Shown: positions 5,050-21,747 of the stretch, piece by piece
How positions within the stretch are numbered: position 1 is the stretch's first letter
How the letters are laid out: each line of letters starts with the position of its first letter
Made by a program: the position numbers and the translations under genes
The notes under the pieces: model-generated
What the model was told of the DNA's origin: nothing
The model's input: the letters and a program-made list of their open reading frames with translations, nothing else
The model's database searches: none
IMG/VR virus record: IMGVR_UViG_3300025402_000027
Location: 1 to 39,382 of that record
From: a virus
DNA: 39,382 bases
Reading direction: 5' to 3' (one strand)

Positions 5050-7358
5050 TGGGTTTTGATCTTGCTTCAGCGCAACCAATTCAACCATCTTTAGGTGGTT
5101 TTGACTTATCTACGGCTACACCTATTGAGTTAGGACGTCAAAATGTTCAAGCTGAGTCTGACCGCAGCGTAGGAGGCTTTGCTGGAAATGTTGTTAAAAG
5201 CGGCGCTAATTTAATTGGCGGTATTGGCCACGCAGTAATGCACCCATTAGAAACTACTAAAGGCATATTAGATGTAGGCGCCGGTGCTTTGCAAAATGTA
5301 CTACCTAAATCGGTAGTTGATACTGTAAACAAGATAGATACTTTATTTAACGCTGATCCCGAAGCGGCTAAGCGCGCAGTTCAAGCCGCCGATGCTATGG
5401 GCGGCGTGTATAAAGAAAAATACGGTAGTTGGGATAAGATAAAAAATACGCTTTATACCGATCCAGTTGGCGCGGCGGCAGATTTATCTACCATTTTAGG
5501 TCTTGGGGGCGGCGCACTTAAAACCGTTGCAGGCGCAGCTAAAGTAGCTGGCGCGCCTGAAATGGCTGCTAATGTAGCTAAAGCTATTACGCCTGTTGAA
5601 ACAATGGCTAATGTAACAAATCCGTTAAGTACTGTTACAGGTCGTATTCCATTTACAAATACTTCTGTATTAGGCGCTGCGGCTGGTTTATCTGGAAAAA
5701 CATTAGATTGGTTATCTCAAATGACTGATCCTAAATCGGCAGCCTTGTTAAAAATGACTGAAGGACAAGCACCTGCGGTTATTGAAGCTATCCGTAATAA
5801 TCCTGGGCTTGTTGAAGGGTATAACCCTTCTGTTGCTGAACGTGCATCTGGATTAGGTTTAACCAAACTTGCGGCTGCTGAACGTGAAACTAAACCATAT
5901 GCGTCCACTAATGTATTAGCAAACGACATTGCCAATCGAGAAGCAATTGTTAATAAATTGGCTGTAGATCCATCGTTAATTGGTAAGATTGAACAAATAC
6001 CCACCGCAATTACTACGGCAGAAGAAATACGAAATGCGACTGCTAAAAAGAATTATGGCAGTATTGCAAACGTAAAAGTTAGCGGTATATCTGATGTAGA
6101 ACTTGCAAAAATGCAGTTAGCCCAAGTTGAGGCTAGTAAAGGCGCTGCTTTGCGTGATTGGGGCAAGTTTGCTACCGAAGAAGCGCAACAACGCAATCTA
6201 TCCGCAGGCGGTGTTATTCCCGAAAATTTAGGGGGAACCGGTAATGTTTCGCCTTCTGCTTATCCTGTTCCTGGCTACCCTCGTATTGGGCCACAATATA
6301 CTGAAAACGCAGCGCGTATACCTGAGTATGCAGGCGCCGCAAAAGAAGCTATGGCTATCGCTGACCAACGTGGTCAACAAGCACGGTACCTTCAAAATGC
6401 TTTAGATTCGCTAAAAGAAAAAGTAGGGGCAGATAAGAGCTTACAGTCTATGCTCGGTAAACCCTCTATGCAAGCGGCGGTTAGCGATGCACTTAAAAGC
6501 GCGCAAGAAACAAATAGCTATTTTCCTGCTGCAACGGGTGAAAAGTTTTCTGTAACTAATTTACAGCGTATTAAAGAGTCCTTAGACGCTAATATTGCTG
6601 CAGCTAAAGCTTCAGTTAACGCAGGTAAACGCCCTGAACTATCTCCGGCTGAGTTAACAGCAACCAAAAATCAATTTATAGATTGGCTTGGCAATAAAGT
6701 ACCAGAATGGAAAACGGCGCGTGAAACCTATGCCGAGCAAAGCAAGCCCATTAATAGAATGGAAATTCGTCAAGCTTTAGCTGAAAAAATAACTTCAAAC
6801 TTAAATCCTGAAGGAAAGCTACAAGGCGCCGCGTTTAAAAATGCGCTAGTTGAAGGCAAAGGAATTATTAAAAAATCTACGGGTGAAGCACGATATGGTA
6901 AGTTGCGTGAAATAATGACGCCGGCTGAAATGAAAGATTTTCAAAATATTAGTGATGAGTTAGCTAGGGCTTCCAAAACTGAAGAACAAGCTATGCGCGG
7001 GTCTAAAGAAGGCGCTATTATTCCTGCGGTTTCAGTGCCGCATTTTCCTGCTTTACTTAGCCGAAGTATTGCTTTAGCTAATATGCTATTGCGTAAATTG
7101 CAAGGTAAAGTAACAGATAAACTTGCTAGAGATTTAGCTTTAGAACTAATAATAGACCCTGAAAAAGGTGCTATATCTCTTGAAAAAGCACTTCAACGTC
7201 AAAACAATATAGAAACTATCAAATCTAATGCGGCGCCTATTAAAGAAGCAATTAGTGCAGGGGCTAAAAAGTTAAAAACAAAAGAAGCAGCAACAATTGG
7301 TAGAATATCTAATAACTTGGCTCCAGGTGAGCAAAACCAAAACGCCCTTGCGAGATAA
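5049..7358 (+). CDS. Large DNA ejection protein, P22 gp16-like position
   Basis: A 769-residue protein, the largest of the ejection trio. It opens with two copies of a short motif (GFDLASAQPIQP and GGFDLSTATPIE) that is common at the N-terminus of large podovirus ejection proteins. Hydrophobic Ala/Gly segments follow (around residues 40-90 and 140-190), then a long helical, Lys/Ala/Glu-rich body that ends in a basic tail. No lysozyme or transglycosylase motif is visible. It probably forms part of the channel through the cell envelope; this is inferred from order and composition. Confidence 0.65.
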   Translation: MGFDLASAQPIQPSLGGFDLSTATPIELGRQNVQAESDRSVGGFAGNVVKSGANLIGGIGHAVMHPLETTKGILDVGAGALQNVLPKSVVDTVNKIDTLFNADPEAAKRAVQAADAMGGVYKEKYGSWDKIKNTLYTDPVGAAADLSTILGLGGGALKTVAGAAKVAGAPEMAANVAKAITPVETMANVTNPLSTVTGRIPFTNTSVLGAAAGLSGKTLDWLSQMTDPKSAALLKMTEGQAPAVIEAIRNNPGLVEGYNPSVAERASGLGLTKLAAAERETKPYASTNVLANDIANREAIVNKLAVDPSLIGKIEQIPTAITTAEEIRNATAKKNYGSIANVKVSGISDVELAKMQLAQVEASKGAALRDWGKFATEEAQQRNLSAGGVIPENLGGTGNVSPSAYPVPGYPRIGPQYTENAARIPEYAGAAKEAMAIADQRGQQARYLQNALDSLKEKVGADKSLQSMLGKPSMQAAVSDALKSAQETNSYFPAATGEKFSVTNLQRIKESLDANIAAAKASVNAGKRPELSPAELTATKNQFIDWLGNKVPEWKTARETYAEQSKPINRMEIRQALAEKITSNLNPEGKLQGAAFKNALVEGKGIIKKSTGEARYGKLREIMTPAEMKDFQNISDELARASKTEEQAMRGSKEGAIIPAVSVPHFPALLSRSIALANMLLRKLQGKVTDKLARDLALELIIDPEKGAISLEKALQRQNNIETIKSNAAPIKEAISAGAKKLKTKEAATIGRISNNLAPGEQNQNALAR

Positions 7359-7361
7359 CAA

Positions 7362-7616
7362 ATGGATCAAACTCTATTTAACATAGCCGTTACTATTACT
7401 GGCTTTCTAGGTGGCTGGTGGCTTAAAGTACTTTGGGACGCTGTTAAAGATTTACAGACCGCCGATAAGATTTTGGTTGAAAAGGTCGGTTCCATTGAAA
7501 TTTTGATTGCTGGCAACTATATGTCCAAGCATGATTTTGACAAGATCGCCGCCGCCATATTTGCCAAGCTTGATAAAATCGAAGATAAGTTAGACCGTAA
7601 AGTAGATAAAACATGA
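7362..7616 (+). CDS. Small membrane-anchored coiled-coil protein of the lysis region
   Basis: An 84-residue protein. Residues 5-25 (LFNIAVTITGFLGGWWLKVLW) are one likely transmembrane segment, and the rest is a charged coiled coil ending in KLDKIEDKLDRKVDKT. It lies immediately before a two-helix membrane protein, spanins and endolysin, and shares an ATGA overlap with the next gene. It may assist or regulate the holin, but no family function is known to me. Confidence 0.65.
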   Translation: MDQTLFNIAVTITGFLGGWWLKVLWDAVKDLQTADKILVEKVGSIEILIAGNYMSKHDFDKIAAAIFAKLDKIEDKLDRKVDKT

Positions 7617-13786: not shown

Positions 13787-13972
13787 ATGAACGCAAATGA
13801 ACTGGCTGATAAGTTGATGTCAAACCTTACTATGGAATACGACTGCGATAAGTATATGGAACAAGCCGCCACCATGCTACGCCAGCAACAAGCTGAAATA
13901 GAAGCGTTGAAAGACAAGCTGATGCTTGCTAAACAATCGCTACAAATTGTAGAAAGCTGGGTTAAAAAGTGA
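13787..13972 (+). CDS. 61-residue coiled-coil protein
   Basis: The sequence runs MNANELADKLMSNLTMEYDC and then a heptad-rich coiled coil around MLRQQQAEIEALKDKL. Such short proteins with the RQQQAEIEALK type of helix are common in phage replication operons, with no known function. The start has ribosome site aaagga. Its TGA overlaps the GTG start of DNA polymerase as GTGA (13969-13972), so polymerase translation may depend on it. Confidence 0.7.
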   Translation: MNANELADKLMSNLTMEYDCDKYMEQAATMLRQQQAEIEALKDKLMLAKQSLQIVESWVKK

Positions 13973-15939
13973 GCATCCTTTGGCTCGATTACGAAACACG
14001 CTCACGATGCGATTTACGCAGCCGGGGATCGTATAACTATGCTCAGGATCCTAGCACCCAAATCATCTGCATGGCGTATGCCTTTGATGATGAGGACGTT
14101 GCTCTGTGGACGCCTGATCAAAAATTTCCTAAGCGTGTAGCGCAACATTTTTTTGACGATGGTCAGATTAGGGCGCATAACGCAGGGTTTGACCGCCTCA
14201 TTACTGAGTTCGTCCTATGCCATGACTTTCTAGTGCCTACACCATTACTAACGCAGTGGTATTGCACCGCCGCACAAGCACGGGCTAACTGCGCTCCAGG
14301 CTCACTTGAGGACGTTGGTCGCTTTGCTAGTTCGTCTATGCGTAAAGATCATAGAGGCAATCAACTCATCCGTTTGTTGTGTATCCCCAAGGCAGATGGT
14401 ACATTTAGTACAGACCCTACCTTGTTAGCAGAAATGGGTAACTACGCCATGCAAGATGTCAGAACCATGCGTTCTATCAGCATGGCGATGCGTCAGCTAT
14501 CCAAAGATGAGTTGCTTGATTACCATGTCAATGAGCGCATCAATGATCGTGGGGTGCTACTAGATAAGCCCCTGTGCGAAGCCGCAGTGCGCTATGCTAG
14601 CGAAGAATTACAAGAAATTGAGCAGATCGTCGCTGAAGTGACCGAAGGTGAGATCACTTCGGTACGCAGCCCTAAGATGCGTGAGTGGGTTTTAGCGCGT
14701 GTCGGCGATGAAGCTAAAAAACTAATGGAAGTCTATAAAGATGGCGACAAGAAATATTCGATCGACAAGTCAGTTCGAGCTAACTTACTTATTCTTGCTG
14801 AAGAAAACCCCGATGAAATACCGGCGGAAGTTGCAGATGTTATCCAATGTGCGGACGACCTATGGGCGTCTAGTGTTGCGAAATTCAACCGATTAAGGGA
14901 GTTAGCTGATGAAGAAGATCACCGAGTTCGTGGGGCTTTTGTCTTTGCAGGTGGAAGCGCTACGGGACGCGCTTCGTCCTACGGCGCCCAAGTCCACAAC
15001 TTCACCCGCAAGTGCGCTAAGGATCCTGATGCCGTTAGACAAGCTATGGTTAGAGGCCACGCAATTGTCCCTACCTTTGGACGCAGAGTCACCGACGTAC
15101 TCAAGGGAATGTTACGGCCAGCTTTGGTACCCGCTGTGGGAAAAACCCTTGTCGTTGCAGACTGGGCAGGAATCGAAGCCCGAGTCAACCCTTGGCTCTC
15201 CAATTGCGACGCCGGTATTGCGAAGCTATCGCTCTTTGCACGGGGAGAGGACGTCTATAAGGTTAACGCAGCAGCAACCTTCCACGTCCCTGTTGCCGAT
15301 GTTAACAATGAGCAACGGCAAATTGGTAAAGTTCAAGAGTTAGCCTGTGGCTTTGCAGGGGGCATAGGAGCGTTCGCGGCGATGGGACGCGCCTATGGCA
15401 TTTTGTTACCTGAGCCTCAAGCCAAGCGAATGGTCACAGCGTGGCGTTTAGCGAATCCTTGGGCTACCCCGTATTGGCAAGACCTTGAAGAAGCGTACAC
15501 AAGAGCGATGCGTAATCCTAACCATGAATTTAGTGCAGGTAGGGTAACCTATATGTACGACGGGCAACATCTTTGGTATGCTTTACCTTCGGGCAGAGTT
15601 CTTTGCTATCCATTCGCTAAGTTAGAAGCTGATGGCGTTACCTACGCTAAAGCAGCATGGAAACCCGCCGTTGATGCAAAGGAATGGCCTAGAGCAAGAC
15701 TATGGAAAGGTTTAGCGTGTGAAAACATTACTCAAGCAGTTGCCAATGATCTATTGCGTTATTCGCTACGCCAATTAGACGATGTTATCCTTCATATCCA
15801 CGATGAAATTGTTGTAGAAACAACCCAGCCCGAAGCGATGATAAAAAGAATGGAAGAAGTGATGTGTACCGCGCCCGATTGGGCTAAGGGCATACCGCTA
15901 GGTGTAGAAATCCATGCCATGCAGCGTTACGGAAAATAA
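13969..15939 (+). CDS. Family A DNA polymerase with 3'-5' exonuclease domain
   Basis: A 656-residue polymerase. Exonuclease motifs: LWLDYET (D7, E9), IRAHNAGFDR, and YAMQDVRTMR. Polymerase motif A is VVADWAGIEARV with D398, motif B lies in RQIGKVQELACGFAGG, and motif C is IHDEIV with HDE at 611-613. The D..E and HDE carboxylates needed for catalysis are present. The start is GTG, overlapping the upstream stop. It is presumably the replicative enzyme, working with the clamp homologue at 20184-20852 and the primase-helicase downstream. Confidence 0.94.
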   Translation: MSILWLDYETRSRCDLRSRGSYNYAQDPSTQIICMAYAFDDEDVALWTPDQKFPKRVAQHFFDDGQIRAHNAGFDRLITEFVLCHDFLVPTPLLTQWYCTAAQARANCAPGSLEDVGRFASSSMRKDHRGNQLIRLLCIPKADGTFSTDPTLLAEMGNYAMQDVRTMRSISMAMRQLSKDELLDYHVNERINDRGVLLDKPLCEAAVRYASEELQEIEQIVAEVTEGEITSVRSPKMREWVLARVGDEAKKLMEVYKDGDKKYSIDKSVRANLLILAEENPDEIPAEVADVIQCADDLWASSVAKFNRLRELADEEDHRVRGAFVFAGGSATGRASSYGAQVHNFTRKCAKDPDAVRQAMVRGHAIVPTFGRRVTDVLKGMLRPALVPAVGKTLVVADWAGIEARVNPWLSNCDAGIAKLSLFARGEDVYKVNAAATFHVPVADVNNEQRQIGKVQELACGFAGGIGAFAAMGRAYGILLPEPQAKRMVTAWRLANPWATPYWQDLEEAYTRAMRNPNHEFSAGRVTYMYDGQHLWYALPSGRVLCYPFAKLEADGVTYAKAAWKPAVDAKEWPRARLWKGLACENITQAVANDLLRYSLRQLDDVILHIHDEIVVETTQPEAMIKRMEEVMCTAPDWAKGIPLGVEIHAMQRYGK

Positions 15940-15997: not shown

Positions 15998-18298
15998 ATG
16001 AACTTTGTAGAATATATCACGAACCTAGCACCTGTAGGTGAAACAGCCCTTGTTGTGCGTCAAAAACCACAGTTAGATGGCAATGGGATGTTGCAGACCC
16101 ATGCCGATGGTACGATTAAATGCACATGGCCTGCGTTCCTGCCTACTGCTAAGGTTAAGAAGGATTGGGCTATCTACGGCAATACAGGCTCGTTTATCCT
16201 AGACCGCTTTGCCGATGGCAAGATATCAGCATCTAGCGCAAATTGTGAATACGTCCTTGTGATGATGTTAGATGACATCGGCACCAAGTCAAAAGAGCCG
16301 CCACTTGCGCCTACTTGGATCATGGAAACGTCCGAAGGATCGTTCCAATGGGGCTACGCATTTAAAGAGCAACCAACCAAGGGCGACTTCACCGCAGCCA
16401 TCAAAGCGATTGCTAAAGCAGGCTATACCGATCCTGGTGCTACTAATGCCGTGCGTAACTTCCGCTTGCCTGGTTCTGTAAACCTCAAGCCAGGGCGCGG
16501 TAACTTTGCGTCAGTCTTAGTAGCGTTCCACCCCGAGCGTGAATACAACCTTGAAGATATCTGCACCGCCCTTGATGTGGTGCCTGACCCTGCTGATACA
16601 GCGCAGAATGTCGCCATTCGCCTAGCTGACACAGGCAAAGATTCAGTCGTTACTTGGCTTAACGAGCAGGGGTTAATCATGTCGGCTGCCAATGGCGAGG
16701 GTTGGATGAGTATCGTTTGCCCTAACAACGCAGAGCATACCGATGGCAACATTGAAGGGCGTTACAAACCCTTAGATCGTTCGTTCTGTTGCTTGCATGG
16801 TCATTGCGTCGACTTTAGTTCACAAATGTTTCTTAATTGGGTAGCGGATAATGGTGGCCCAACTGTCGATCATGGTTTGCGTGACGAGTTGCTAGCAGAA
16901 AAGATGAACATGGCATTGTCAAAGCTAACACCCAATGACGTTTACAGAGATACCGCAGCAGAACTGATTGCCGAGGTTGAGCGCAAGGAATTAGGACGCA
17001 TTGAGAAGGCGGATTGGTACAAGCGGTTTGCTTACATCCAAGACGATGAGTCTTACTTTGATATGCAAGACCGACGTGAGGTCAGTCGCCAGACGTTCAA
17101 CGCTTTGTTCCGTCATGTATCGTGCAAGTCCCTTCATACAGGGCGCAAAGTAGAAGCATCCATTTGCTTTGATGAGAATCGTCAAGCAATGGGCGCCAAG
17201 GCGCTCGTTGGTGTGACTTACGCAGCAGGCGAAGATGTGATTGTATCCCGTGATGGCGACTTGTTTGGTAATCGTTGGCGGGATGCTAGACCTGAAATTC
17301 CAAATGCCTCTAACACAGACATTTCTATGTGGCTTAAGCATTGTCAAGAGTTAGTGCCTGAGCCTGAAGAACTTAGCCACATTTTTGATGTGATGGCTTT
17401 CAAAGTGCAATACCCCAAGATTAAAGTAAACCATGCTGTCCTTCATGCGGGTGACGAAGGATCAGGCAAGGACACATTTTGGGCGCCATTTATATGGGCT
17501 ATCTGTGGCGATCACCTTAAAAACAGAGGCATTATGGATAACAATTCCGTAAATTCCCAATGGGGTTATCAGTTGGAATCCGAAATCCTTATCATCAATG
17601 AACTTAAAGAACCCGACGCATCTACACGTCGCCAACTAGCAAACCAACTTAAACCAATCATCGCAGCCCCGCCCGAAATGCTCCCAATTAACCGCAAAGG
17701 ATTGCATCCGTACATGATGGCAAATAGGCTATTCGTGTTGGCATTTTCAAATGACCCCGTTCCAATTTCCTTAGCTAGTCAAGATAGAAGATGGTTCTGC
17801 GTCTGGTCGGCTGCACCGCGTATGGACTCAAACAAGGCCAAGAAAATGTGGGACTGGTATCGTGCCGGCGGGTTTGCTGCTATTGCTGATGTTCTTAAAA
17901 AGCGTGATGTATCCCGTTTTAATCCTAGTGCGCCGCCGATGTGGACTGAGTTTAAGGCCAATCTAGTAGAGCATGGCATGAGCATGGCCGAGAGTTACCT
18001 CGTAGAGATGCTTAAAAACCGCGTAGGCGAGTTTTCGCGTGGAGTTATAGGCTCACCCTTTCACTCTCTTTGTGATCGCCTTGCGGGTGCTGCGCCGTCA
18101 GGCGTTAAAGTGCCACAGGCTGCACTCTTGCACGCCTTAAAAGAAGCGGGCTGGATAGATCGCGGGCGGCTAAAGTCTAGGGAGTTCGACACTAAGAAGC
18201 ATATATTTTGCGCGCCGGCGATGTCTGAGATATCAAAATCAGAGCTGCGCCGTATGGTAGAGGAAAACCCGCCACCTAAGATGGTGTTGGTCAAATAA
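15998..18298 (+). CDS. Primase-helicase (RepB/PrimPol-like N-terminus, SF3/D5-like helicase C-terminus)
   Basis: A 766-residue fusion. The N-terminal part (DWAIYGNTGSFILDRF, VLVMMLDDIGTK, SFQWGYAF, NFRLPGSVNLKPG) resembles virus and plasmid RepB-type primases. A Cys/His cluster lies near residue 260 (CCLHGHC). The C-terminal part has Walker A GDEGSGKD at 485-492 and a Walker B-like ILIINELKEP, as in D5/DUF5906 helicases. It would prime and unwind the origin. Ribosome site gaaaggt. The gene ends directly before a bidirectional terminator. Confidence 0.85.
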   Translation: MNFVEYITNLAPVGETALVVRQKPQLDGNGMLQTHADGTIKCTWPAFLPTAKVKKDWAIYGNTGSFILDRFADGKISASSANCEYVLVMMLDDIGTKSKEPPLAPTWIMETSEGSFQWGYAFKEQPTKGDFTAAIKAIAKAGYTDPGATNAVRNFRLPGSVNLKPGRGNFASVLVAFHPEREYNLEDICTALDVVPDPADTAQNVAIRLADTGKDSVVTWLNEQGLIMSAANGEGWMSIVCPNNAEHTDGNIEGRYKPLDRSFCCLHGHCVDFSSQMFLNWVADNGGPTVDHGLRDELLAEKMNMALSKLTPNDVYRDTAAELIAEVERKELGRIEKADWYKRFAYIQDDESYFDMQDRREVSRQTFNALFRHVSCKSLHTGRKVEASICFDENRQAMGAKALVGVTYAAGEDVIVSRDGDLFGNRWRDARPEIPNASNTDISMWLKHCQELVPEPEELSHIFDVMAFKVQYPKIKVNHAVLHAGDEGSGKDTFWAPFIWAICGDHLKNRGIMDNNSVNSQWGYQLESEILIINELKEPDASTRRQLANQLKPIIAAPPEMLPINRKGLHPYMMANRLFVLAFSNDPVPISLASQDRRWFCVWSAAPRMDSNKAKKMWDWYRAGGFAAIADVLKKRDVSRFNPSAPPMWTEFKANLVEHGMSMAESYLVEMLKNRVGEFSRGVIGSPFHSLCDRLAGAAPSGVKVPQAALLHALKEAGWIDRGRLKSREFDTKKHIFCAPAMSEISKSELRRMVEENPPPKMVLVK

Positions 18299-20183: not shown

Positions 20184-20852
20184 TTAGGCTGCTATGGCTG
20201 CTGGTTGTTCGGCTGCTGCTAGTGGCGCGTATAGCGTAGGACTAGCAAGGCCGCCGGCCTGTTCGTCGCCTGTTTTGCCTTTGGTTGGCATAATTACGCC
20301 AATAAAGCTAGCAAGGCCGGTGATATTGACTAAGGCCGCGCTGTGGCCATTTTGCATAATCTCAATATCAGGGCTTTTTGCACCGGTCAATAGTTTGGCC
20401 GCTTTTAGGAATGTCGCTAAATAATCGGGGTTATATTGTGCAGCCGCGCCGTTAGTCATTGCGCCGCTTACTACACGAGCATAATCGGGAAATGTGCCCT
20501 CTATGCCGGCGAATGTCGTTTTCACGCCGTAATTGTCAATTTCCCAATACTTAGCACTAGATCCATAAGGGTTAGGAATTTGTTTAATTTGCACGATGTC
20601 GGCATTTTTGCTTACTGGTTTTAAGGCCTTAATAATATCGCTAGGAATGATGAGCGAACCCGCGCCGGTGTTTACTAGGTTTTGAGTTAAGTTCTCAATT
20701 CCTAAAATATGCCCGTTAGTTGCTACTAAGCGGGTTGTTGTTTCGTTAAATTCGACGTTTACGCCGTTTAAATAATAGCGAATATCACCCTTAGCTGCTA
20801 AGAGATCAAGACCCTTTAAAGCATTTATTGAGATTGTAAATTGATTGTTCAT
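20184..20852 (-). CDS. Two-domain beta-type DNA sliding clamp homologue
   Basis: A 222-residue protein that matches bacterial DnaN from its second domain on. DIRYYLNGVNVEF (residues 23-35) corresponds to DVRYYLNGMLFE of E. coli beta, ATNGHILG (44-51) to ATDGHRLA, LIIPSDIIKALK (67-78) to the following strand and helix, EGTFPDYARVV (118-128) to DGRFPDYRRVL, and GVIMP (185-189) to the C-terminal VVMP. Domain 1 (about 125 residues) is absent, and a 30-residue Ala/Pro/Gly-rich tail is added. It probably clamps the family A polymerase. With two domains per subunit it would need to form a trimer to make the usual six-domain ring. Confidence 0.88.
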   Translation of the reverse strand: MNNQFTISINALKGLDLLAAKGDIRYYLNGVNVEFNETTTRLVATNGHILGIENLTQNLVNTGAGSLIIPSDIIKALKPVSKNADIVQIKQIPNPYGSSAKYWEIDNYGVKTTFAGIEGTFPDYARVVSGAMTNGAAAQYNPDYLATFLKAAKLLTGAKSPDIEIMQNGHSAALVNITGLASFIGVIMPTKGKTGDEQAGGLASPTLYAPLAAAEQPAAIAA

Positions 20853-21058: not shown

Positions 21059-21073
21059 TTTGTGGCCTTTTCG

Positions 21074-21114
21074 TTTAGTTTAGTGGACTGTTTACCGGTT
21101 AAGTTGCAGCCGGT
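21074..21114 (-). promoter_or_regulatory. Second copy of the leader element (CCGG hairpin plus CACTAAACTAAA)
   Basis: Read leftward, ACCGG (21114-21110) pairs with CCGGT (21098-21094), followed by CACTAAACTAAA (21085-21074), identical over 12 bases to the copy at 20138-20127. The hairpin starts about where the transcript from the promoter at 21121-21149 should start, so it would cap the 5' end of the mRNA. Confidence 0.45.
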
Positions 21115-21120
21115 ATTGAT

Positions 21121-21149
21121 AATGTAAAACAATTCCTTACACTTTGCAA
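21121..21149 (-). promoter_or_regulatory. Candidate promoter for the leftward clamp operon
   Basis: On the minus strand TTGCAA (21149-21144) and TACATT (21126-21121) are separated by exactly 17 bases; each matches four of six bases of the host sigma-70 consensus. It lies between the DnaA-box-like repeats and the first leftward gene, and the predicted start is about 21114. Confidence 0.5.
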
Positions 21150-21170
21150 CACTTAGCGCAAAATATATTT

Positions 21171-21559
21171 TGTGGACTGATTGCGGATCGATTGTGGACT
21201 GATTGTGGACAATCAAAAACAGGGCGCGAACCCTTACAAAATAAGAGTTGTGGATATTGTGGATAAATTAAAATACCTTATTAGTTAGAGGTTGATATAT
21301 TGTTGTATAAATACAACGAATGTTATAAGTCAGCGACTTAAAATCGATTGTCCACTTGTCCACGTTGTCCACGTTTATGCTGCTATTTCGCCCACGCCGT
21401 TAGCTACTAGCTAAAAGTTGTGGATAGTGTGGACAACTTAAAAACATATTGTCCGCATTGTCCACAAGTTAAGCGGCCACGCGCCCAAAGCAAAAAGCAA
21501 ACAACAACAACAACGCAACGCCGCGCCCTAACTTGCCTGGACAATCCACGTTGTCCACA
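21171..21559. other. Candidate replication origin: cluster of DnaA-box-like 9-mers
   Basis: This lies in the only stretch over 300 bases without a gene (21059-21747). At least a dozen 9-mers match or nearly match the DnaA box TTATCCACA. A perfect box is at 21258-21266 (minus orientation); TTGTCCACA or its complement is at 21204, 21428, 21458 and 21551; TTGTCCACG is at 21356 and 21365; others are at 21171, 21193, 21249, 21348, 21419 and 21449. Many are paired head to tail as 18-bp double boxes. An AT-rich segment (about 21263-21335) lies between the groups and could be the unwinding site. Confidence 0.65.
21302..21340. promoter_or_regulatory. Two palindromes in the AT-rich part of the origin region
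   Basis: GTTGTAT-aa-ATACAAC (21302-21317) is a perfect inverted repeat with 7-bp arms, and TAAGTC-agc-GACTTA (21326-21340) has 6-bp arms. They lie between two groups of DnaA-box-like repeats. They could be operators for a dimeric protein or replication hairpins. Confidence 0.4.
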
Positions 21560-21732
21560 AGCCACAAGCTAATAAGGGTAAACCCGTAGCCTGAAACTTC
21601 TGCCTTTCAAATTTAGGCCCCCGGGTAGGGCCGACAGCTTTTGAGTTGGTGGTTGCCAGGTATCACGAACAATTTTTATTTTTATAGCCATCACAACAGA
21701 TTCGTTTTTAATTTTTATTTTTTATTGAAAAG

Positions 21733-21741
21733 TGATAACAT
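21733..21741 (+). promoter_or_regulatory. Candidate extended -10 promoter for the packaging/structural operon
   Basis: TGATAACAT is an extended -10 (TG, one base, TAACAT) seven bases upstream of the ATG at 21748, preceded by T/A-rich sequence but no good -35. It overlaps a small palindrome, GTGAT-aac-ATCAC (21732-21744), which could be an operator. A start seven bases downstream would fall on the A of the start codon. Confidence 0.4.
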
Positions 21742-21747
21742 CACGCT

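Follow-up and report, generated by a model that had tools for sequence, protein, structure and literature searches.

A candidate replication origin in a tailed-phage genome with iterons that co-vary with the predicted wing of the phage primase-helicase

Introduction

The alpha protein of satellite phage P4 combines primase, helicase and origin recognition in one protein and works with short iterons, and among closely related geminiviruses, residues in the iteron-related domain of the Rep initiator vary in step with the iteron bases. In PICI origins, two iteron sets flank an AT-rich region, and P4 alpha with its cognate ori is mentioned in the same work (PMC6092414). The Rep protein of SaPI5 is a fused primase-helicase; in SaPI Rep and SCCmec Cch2, which are regarded as self-loading helicases, a C-terminal domain binds the iterons (PMC7581432). 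The accessible part of the report on the NrS-1 primase-polymerase describes an 8-nt recognition sequence that occurs twice in the genome and a Tail without structural relatives, and contains no mention of iteron arrays (PMC7102993). Published work suggests that satellite replication modules in Vibrio may diversify under selection by a phage nuclease directed at origins (PMC8263062).

In the current study, we analyzed a stretch of 39,382 nucleotides (IMG/VR record IMGVR_UViG_3300025402_000027, hereafter the window), a phage genome that encodes a terminase and structural proteins, in which a first-pass annotation had proposed an origin built from DnaA-like boxes. The origin part of that proposal is supported by position, layout, iteron density, an AT-rich core and co-evolution with the primase-helicase; the DnaA identity of the boxes is not. 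The repeats are most likely landing sites of the phage primase-helicase, and not host DnaA sites.

Results

The repeat cluster and its genes

The cluster lies upstream of terS (Table 1). Positions 21060-21620 (561 bp) hold 12 boxes with at most one mismatch from TTRTCCACR, whereas 1000 dinucleotide shuffles of this region averaged 0.53 boxes and never exceeded 5; the next-best 561-bp stretch anywhere in the window has 3. Four box pairs follow each other head to tail at 9 bp in the cluster, and none did so in any shuffle. Far above shuffle expectation, the cluster is real, and all coordinates listed for it in the first-pass annotation were checked: the 18-bp units at 21249, 21356, 21419, 21449 and 21542 are all present, the perfect DnaA box TTATCCACA is found at 21258-21266 on the minus strand, and the doublets of the inverted repeat stand in opposite orientation with 12 bases between them. 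The AT-rich core and its two palindromes (TTGTATAAATACAA and AAGTCAGCGACTT) were likewise recovered. The first half of the last unit (21542-21550, CAATCCACG) carries two mismatches. What had been described as 22-bp direct repeats at 21171 and 21193 share only 16 of 22 bases and represent degenerate sites (TGTGGACTGATTG), not long repeats. GC skew across the window showed no clear turn near 21.2 kb, and neither a DNA search of phage records with the origin region nor an Rfam search returned a match.

Pfam assigned a DUF5906/SF3 domain to the primase-helicase, with RepB_primase just under its cut-off, and the PDB sequence match was to the helicase part of NrS-1. The clamp-like protein beside the cluster matched a PHROG processivity factor (E 1e-11) and, more strongly, a PHROG labelled RusA-like (E 6e-30); its homologues occur in 22 of 66 loci, and other genes occupy that place in the remainder. 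The phage further encodes a PD-(D/E)XK nuclease and an SNF2-type helicase. Small ORFs of the window, checked against DnaA families, gave no match, and a single search through 84,980 bacterial and archaeal genomes found no relative and no bacterial host.

Table 1. Features of the candidate origin, the proposed initiator and neighboring genes (window coordinates).
Feature	Position	Strand	Comment
Family A DNA polymerase	13969-15939		
Primase-helicase, 766 aa; proposed initiator	15998..18298	+	RepB_primase/AEP-like N-terminus, SF3 DUF5906 helicase, putative C-terminal DNA-binding domain
C-terminal region, residues 620-766	17855..18295	+	AlphaFold2, 68 natural sequences, mean pLDDT 82
Wing-tip codons, residues 726-731 (K-S-R-E-F-D)	18173..18190	+	K726, R728, D731 co-vary with iteron bases 5, 7, 3
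Sliding-clamp-like protein adjoining candidate origin	20184-20852	-	Pfam DnaN central domain, E 2e-10
Repeat cluster	21171-21559		Intergenic, between minus-strand gene block (18399 to ~21059) and terS-terL late genes (from 21748)
Left arm, outer iterons	21170..21212	-	Degenerate at 21171, 21193; exact TTGTCCACA at 21204-21212
Left arm, inner iteron doublet ATATCCACA/TTATCCACA	21249..21266	-	9-bp tandem; includes perfect DnaA-box sequence
AT-rich core, 74% AT (window 56%)	21267..21347	.	Conserved block RATGTTAYAAGYCAGCGAYTTAAAA at 21319-21343
Right arm, iteron triplet	21348..21373	+	Starts 21348, 21356, 21365
Right arm, iteron doublet, left half of inverted repeat	21419..21436	-	
Right arm, iteron doublet, right half of inverted repeat	21449..21466	+	
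Distal right iterons	21536..21559	.	TTGTCCAGG at 21536-21544 (-); doublet 21542-21559 (+)

Relatives keep the layout and change the letters

Relatives of the primase-helicase were found at 78 IMG/VR loci (60-100% identity in the best segment), and its nearest annotated record is MW202483.1 (54%; locus L001). Three further scans raised the set to 229 loci including the window, of which 148 are non-redundant with terS downstream. Iteron type was assigned where at least three tandem TGNC sites occur, which typed 102 loci and left out 46 of the 148; the distant clades L001, L058-L066, L131 and L132 follow other motifs. GTTTACA-type repeats take the place of TGNC iterons in L001. The minus-strand block of this record also encodes a small protein annotated as DnaA helix-turn-helix (7083-7379, minus strand), for which the only relative found was at L064 (13205-13435, minus strand).

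Dense TTGTCCACA boxes stand upstream of terS in 27 of the first 66 loci, and most of the others carry equally dense, different repeats at the same place. Site sequences across close relatives include TGTCCACA, TGACTACA, TGACAATT, TGCCAATA, TGCCTACA, TGACCCAT and others, with a common scheme of TG[A/T/C]C plus a variable part, head to tail every 8 or 9 bp. The first-pass annotation had named absence of the boxes from this place in close relatives as evidence against an origin; the TTGTCCAC letters are indeed absent there, and other iterons stand in their place. The 9-base phasing on which it had also relied holds where relatives share the iteron type of the window (137 of 158 spacings, counting those of 7-12 bp); several other types mostly use 8 bp.

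In the 148 loci, the region upstream of terS keeps one layout, with arms of head-to-tail sites around an AT-rich core. When sites were mapped relative to the conserved core block ATGTTAYAAGYCAGCGA, positions and strands were largely kept, whatever the letters: a minus-strand doublet at about -70/-61, the core, a plus-strand doublet or triplet at +29/+37/+46 and, farther out, a minus-strand doublet at about +100/+109, a plus-strand doublet at about +131/+140 and distal sites at about +210/+225. Minus-strand sites about 115-150 bp left of the block match the outer left arm of the window, the inner left doublet lies near the -70/-61 doublet of relatives of any iteron type, and the right-arm triplet is conserved in position relative to the block. 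The core block was found in 27 loci spanning several iteron types, and the AT-rich core is probably the unwinding element.

Other repeats and motifs share this region. Locus L071 has about 14 tandem TGACCGGC units beside ordinary TGACCATA-type iterons upstream of terS. Between iterons and terS, the L065 clade (e.g., L161, L149, L174, L178) has a second repeat family of imperfect palindromes like GTTAGTGnnnACTAAC in several copies; an automatic motif search returned this family as GTTAGTGnnCACTAAC, distinct from the iterons. The corresponding block of the window (21560-21747) contains GGGTAGGGCC, AACAATTTTTATTTTT and GTGATAACATCACGC, and in relatives it has a TAGGGCC-like motif in 109 of 148 loci and a poly-T block in 124 of 148. 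This block could be a packaging site, a promoter or a terminator.

Iteron bases co-vary with three residues of the primase-helicase

Identity profiles of the primase-helicase among close relatives drop at residues 721-740 where iteron types differ, and within the TGACAATT (AATT) type none of these 20 residues is different. In the alignment of the wing segment, TGTCCACA phages have G-R-x-K-S-R-E/D-F/Y-D-x-K-K-H, those with TGACTACA have M-S-R-D-Y-T/P, those with TGACAATT have A-S-H-D-Y-P, those with TGACAATA/TGCCAATA have A-S-A-E-Y-M and those with TGCCTACA have Y-S-R-E-Y-A. Mutual information between all 766 protein columns and the iteron bases of the 102 typed loci placed columns 731 and 726 at the top for bases 3 and 5, and columns 731, 726 and 728 for base 7; bases 6 and 8 had weak links to residues. 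Column 731 reached 0.86 bit, vs. maxima of 0.33 for TerS, 0.41 for TerL and 0.34 for the DNA polymerase.

The residue triple at 726, 728 and 731 has predictive value. With L001-L079 and the window as reference, it gave 100 of 104 site bases correctly in 26 later-fetched loci, compared with 43 of 104 by transfer from the nearest relative over residues 1-700. Although the full set of loci contributed in part to selecting the three columns, the test set informed this selection only slightly, since the first-fetched loci alone rank columns 731, 726 and then 732, 746 and 728. Of 44 loci with the K-R-D triple of the window, 43 have TGTC-CAC iterons or close variants, the exception being L156 with TGCCCACA; a second exception to the residue code is L224, with M-R-P and TGACCTACA. 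Seven loci (L149, L152, L156, L157, L174, L188, L191) combine K-R-D with K733R and an RKHII tail, and all three of these that were typed or read (L149, L156, L174) carry TGCCCACA, indicating that specificity depends on more than three residues.

Kinship was controlled with independent supported pairs on a tree built from primase-helicase residues 1-700, without the C-terminal domain; parsimony on this tree requires 17 or more changes of the TGTCCAC class. Residue 731 (D731) and TGTCCAC changed in the same sense in about 11 of 12 independent pairs, in the opposite sense in none, and were unchanged in one (p ~0.001). The corresponding counts were about 10, 0 and 2 for residue 726, and about 6, 0 and 8 for residue 728 against base 7 (p 0.03); control residues 219, 415 and 746 had no association in the same test. 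Because independent pairs agree, shared ancestry does not explain the link between residues and iterons.

Two other candidate specificity factors were rejected. In a search for a small regulator gene following iteron type, most gene clusters exclusive to TGTCCACA loci proved to be fortuitous ORFs within the repeats themselves or families present in just 4-8 loci, and the DnaN-like clamp is present in 7 of 27 TGTCCACA loci and 15 of 39 others of several types.

The co-varying residues map to the tip of a predicted wing

In the AlphaFold2 model, residues 620-766 begin with a helix and a short strand, continue with two helices and a beta-hairpin, and end in another helix. Within this model, a strand (683-685), helices 688-698 and 707-717, and wing strands 720-725 and 734-738 give the H1-S1-H2-H3-S2-wing-S3 topology of a winged helix, with block pLDDT of 81-93 over residues 670-739 and above 90 in the blocks holding the wing. 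The hairpin tip is a loop made up of residues 726-733, and helix 707-717 (within QAALLHALKEAGW), in the usual position of a recognition helix, is nearly invariant. The same elements recur in a full-length model, which is weak overall (pTM 0.38). Foldseek matched this full-length model to the NrS-1 polymerase CTR (6k9c, E 1.4e-11, best), poxvirus D5/E5 and ASFV PrimPol, and the AEP part also matches S-2L PrimPol (6zp9). The isolated domain had no PDB match at E<=0.001 (best E 0.1-2, several winged-helix proteins), so the term winged helix denotes the predicted topology; a profile search of the domain against the PDB gave no NrS-1 match.

Discussion

Taken together, the cluster is very probably the replication origin of this phage, with iterons bound by the predicted C-terminal winged helix of its own PrimPol/SF3 protein, a presumed self-loading initiator, and the wing tip reading their variable bases. 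The sites, their layout and their co-variation with the wing support this reading, and the co-variation suggests that the C-terminal domain determines iteron specificity. The primase-helicase, which the first-pass annotation had also put forward for a binding test, is a more likely ligand than DnaA.

A role of the iterons as operators that control the divergent operons on either side, with the primase-helicase C-terminus or a different phage regulator as ligand and no origin present, would suit a region between divergent gene sets (minus-strand genes to ~21059 and terS from 21748). However, the co-varying protein is a replicative primase-helicase, the AT-rich core with its flanking arms resembles PICI origins, and no small minus-strand regulator tracks iteron type as well, the testable widespread families occurring in other types too. 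We therefore regard operators alone as very improbable, and autoregulation could exist alongside origin function.

That the boxes are host DnaA boxes, with DnaA opening the phage origin as it does on the chromosome, would account for the one perfect TTATCCACA and the many TTGTCCACA variants in the window. DnaA specificity is conserved in bacteria, so DnaA cannot explain wholesale site swaps between close relatives, in which unrelated sequences occupy the same positions and the letters of the boxes track the wing residues; nor does it account for the co-variation with a phage protein. TGTCCAC averages 8.3 copies per origin in K-R-D loci vs. 0.19 in the rest, and a perfect box is present in only 6 of 58 origins with other wing residues, all six in the L065 clade. 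In that clade, 30 loci of differing iteron type all retain a single perfect GTTATCCACAG, and DnaA may help there. Near the iterons and yet independent of their type, this box behaves as expected of a true DnaA site, which sharpens the contrast with the iterons. An origin opened by DnaA is thus very improbable: the likeness of the cluster to DnaA boxes is that of one specificity among several, the K-R-D type, and is no evidence for DnaA. The perfect TTATCCACA at 21258 sits in an iteron position and is most simply a degenerate iteron, although DnaA might bind it. Packaging (pac/cos) sites recognized by the adjacent TerS, as the position of the repeats directly upstream of terS in relatives would allow, are most improbable, since no TerS column exceeds 0.33 bit with iteron bases, compared with 0.86 in the wing of the primase-helicase, and locus L022 has a different iteron type in spite of TerS and TerL being 90 and 98% identical to those of the window.

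Returning to the primase-helicase as initiator, we infer binding, opening and initiation from the likeness to SaPI Rep, SCCmec Cch2 and PICI origins. The TGNC-NNNN iterons, which recur head to tail at 8-9 bp in an arm on each side of the core, would be read by wing-tip residues 726-733, roughly with 731 facing base 3, 726 base 5 and 728 base 7. Helicase subunits would gather at the tandem sites to the left and right of the core and could then melt 21267-21347 and load as two rings; unwinding and priming from the core, as the origin fires, would be the work of this same protein.

Judging from sequence comparison, these phages appear to have rewritten their origin recognition sequence many times. 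It is conceivable, though we hold it only tentatively, that a compact wing code of about one residue per base lets this tailed-phage family switch origin sequence repeatedly with the geometry kept, that antagonists may be the drivers, and that relatives constitute incompatibility groups. Satellites, co-infecting phages and origin-directed nucleases like Odn of ICP1 might each drive such switching, attack by such nucleases being a possible cause, and under repeated switching close relatives would form origin incompatibility groups.

The DnaA reading is thus replaced by a phage-encoded pair of initiator and iteron whose specificity is readable from sequence. On this basis, three residues could serve to predict an iteron sequence, and origins could be called from metagenomes without culture. 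The relatives also provide a natural series of matched protein-DNA pairs in which to study how initiators and origins change together, which bears as well on origin switching as a possible escape from parasites or rivals.

Among known systems, bacterial oriC shares with the window the resemblance of the K-R-D type iteron to TTATCCACA, but window-type sites vary among relatives and follow a phage protein. Geminivirus Rep is an unrelated rolling-circle HUH initiator of plant ssDNA viruses. P4 alpha is similar by description, although its site sequence is different and P4 is a satellite. Like the window protein, NrS-1 joins AEP and SF3 helicase parts; it also has a C-terminal Tail, and its helicase is hexameric, as that of the window protein may be. 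PICI/SaPI and Cch2 systems use an SF3/D5-family initiator helicase, with or without fused primase, as the window phage probably does. Unlike in PICI/SaPI, where the origin follows directly 3' of rep, initiator gene and candidate origin are here ~3 kb apart across a variable minus-strand block, with the origin next to terS; those satellites are integrated in the host chromosome, whereas the window is a tailed-phage genome, and one close family here holds many iteron types with residue-level co-variation. An origin of a kind known from phage satellites (PICI/SaPI), with a rapidly switching specificity, is the best reading of this locus.
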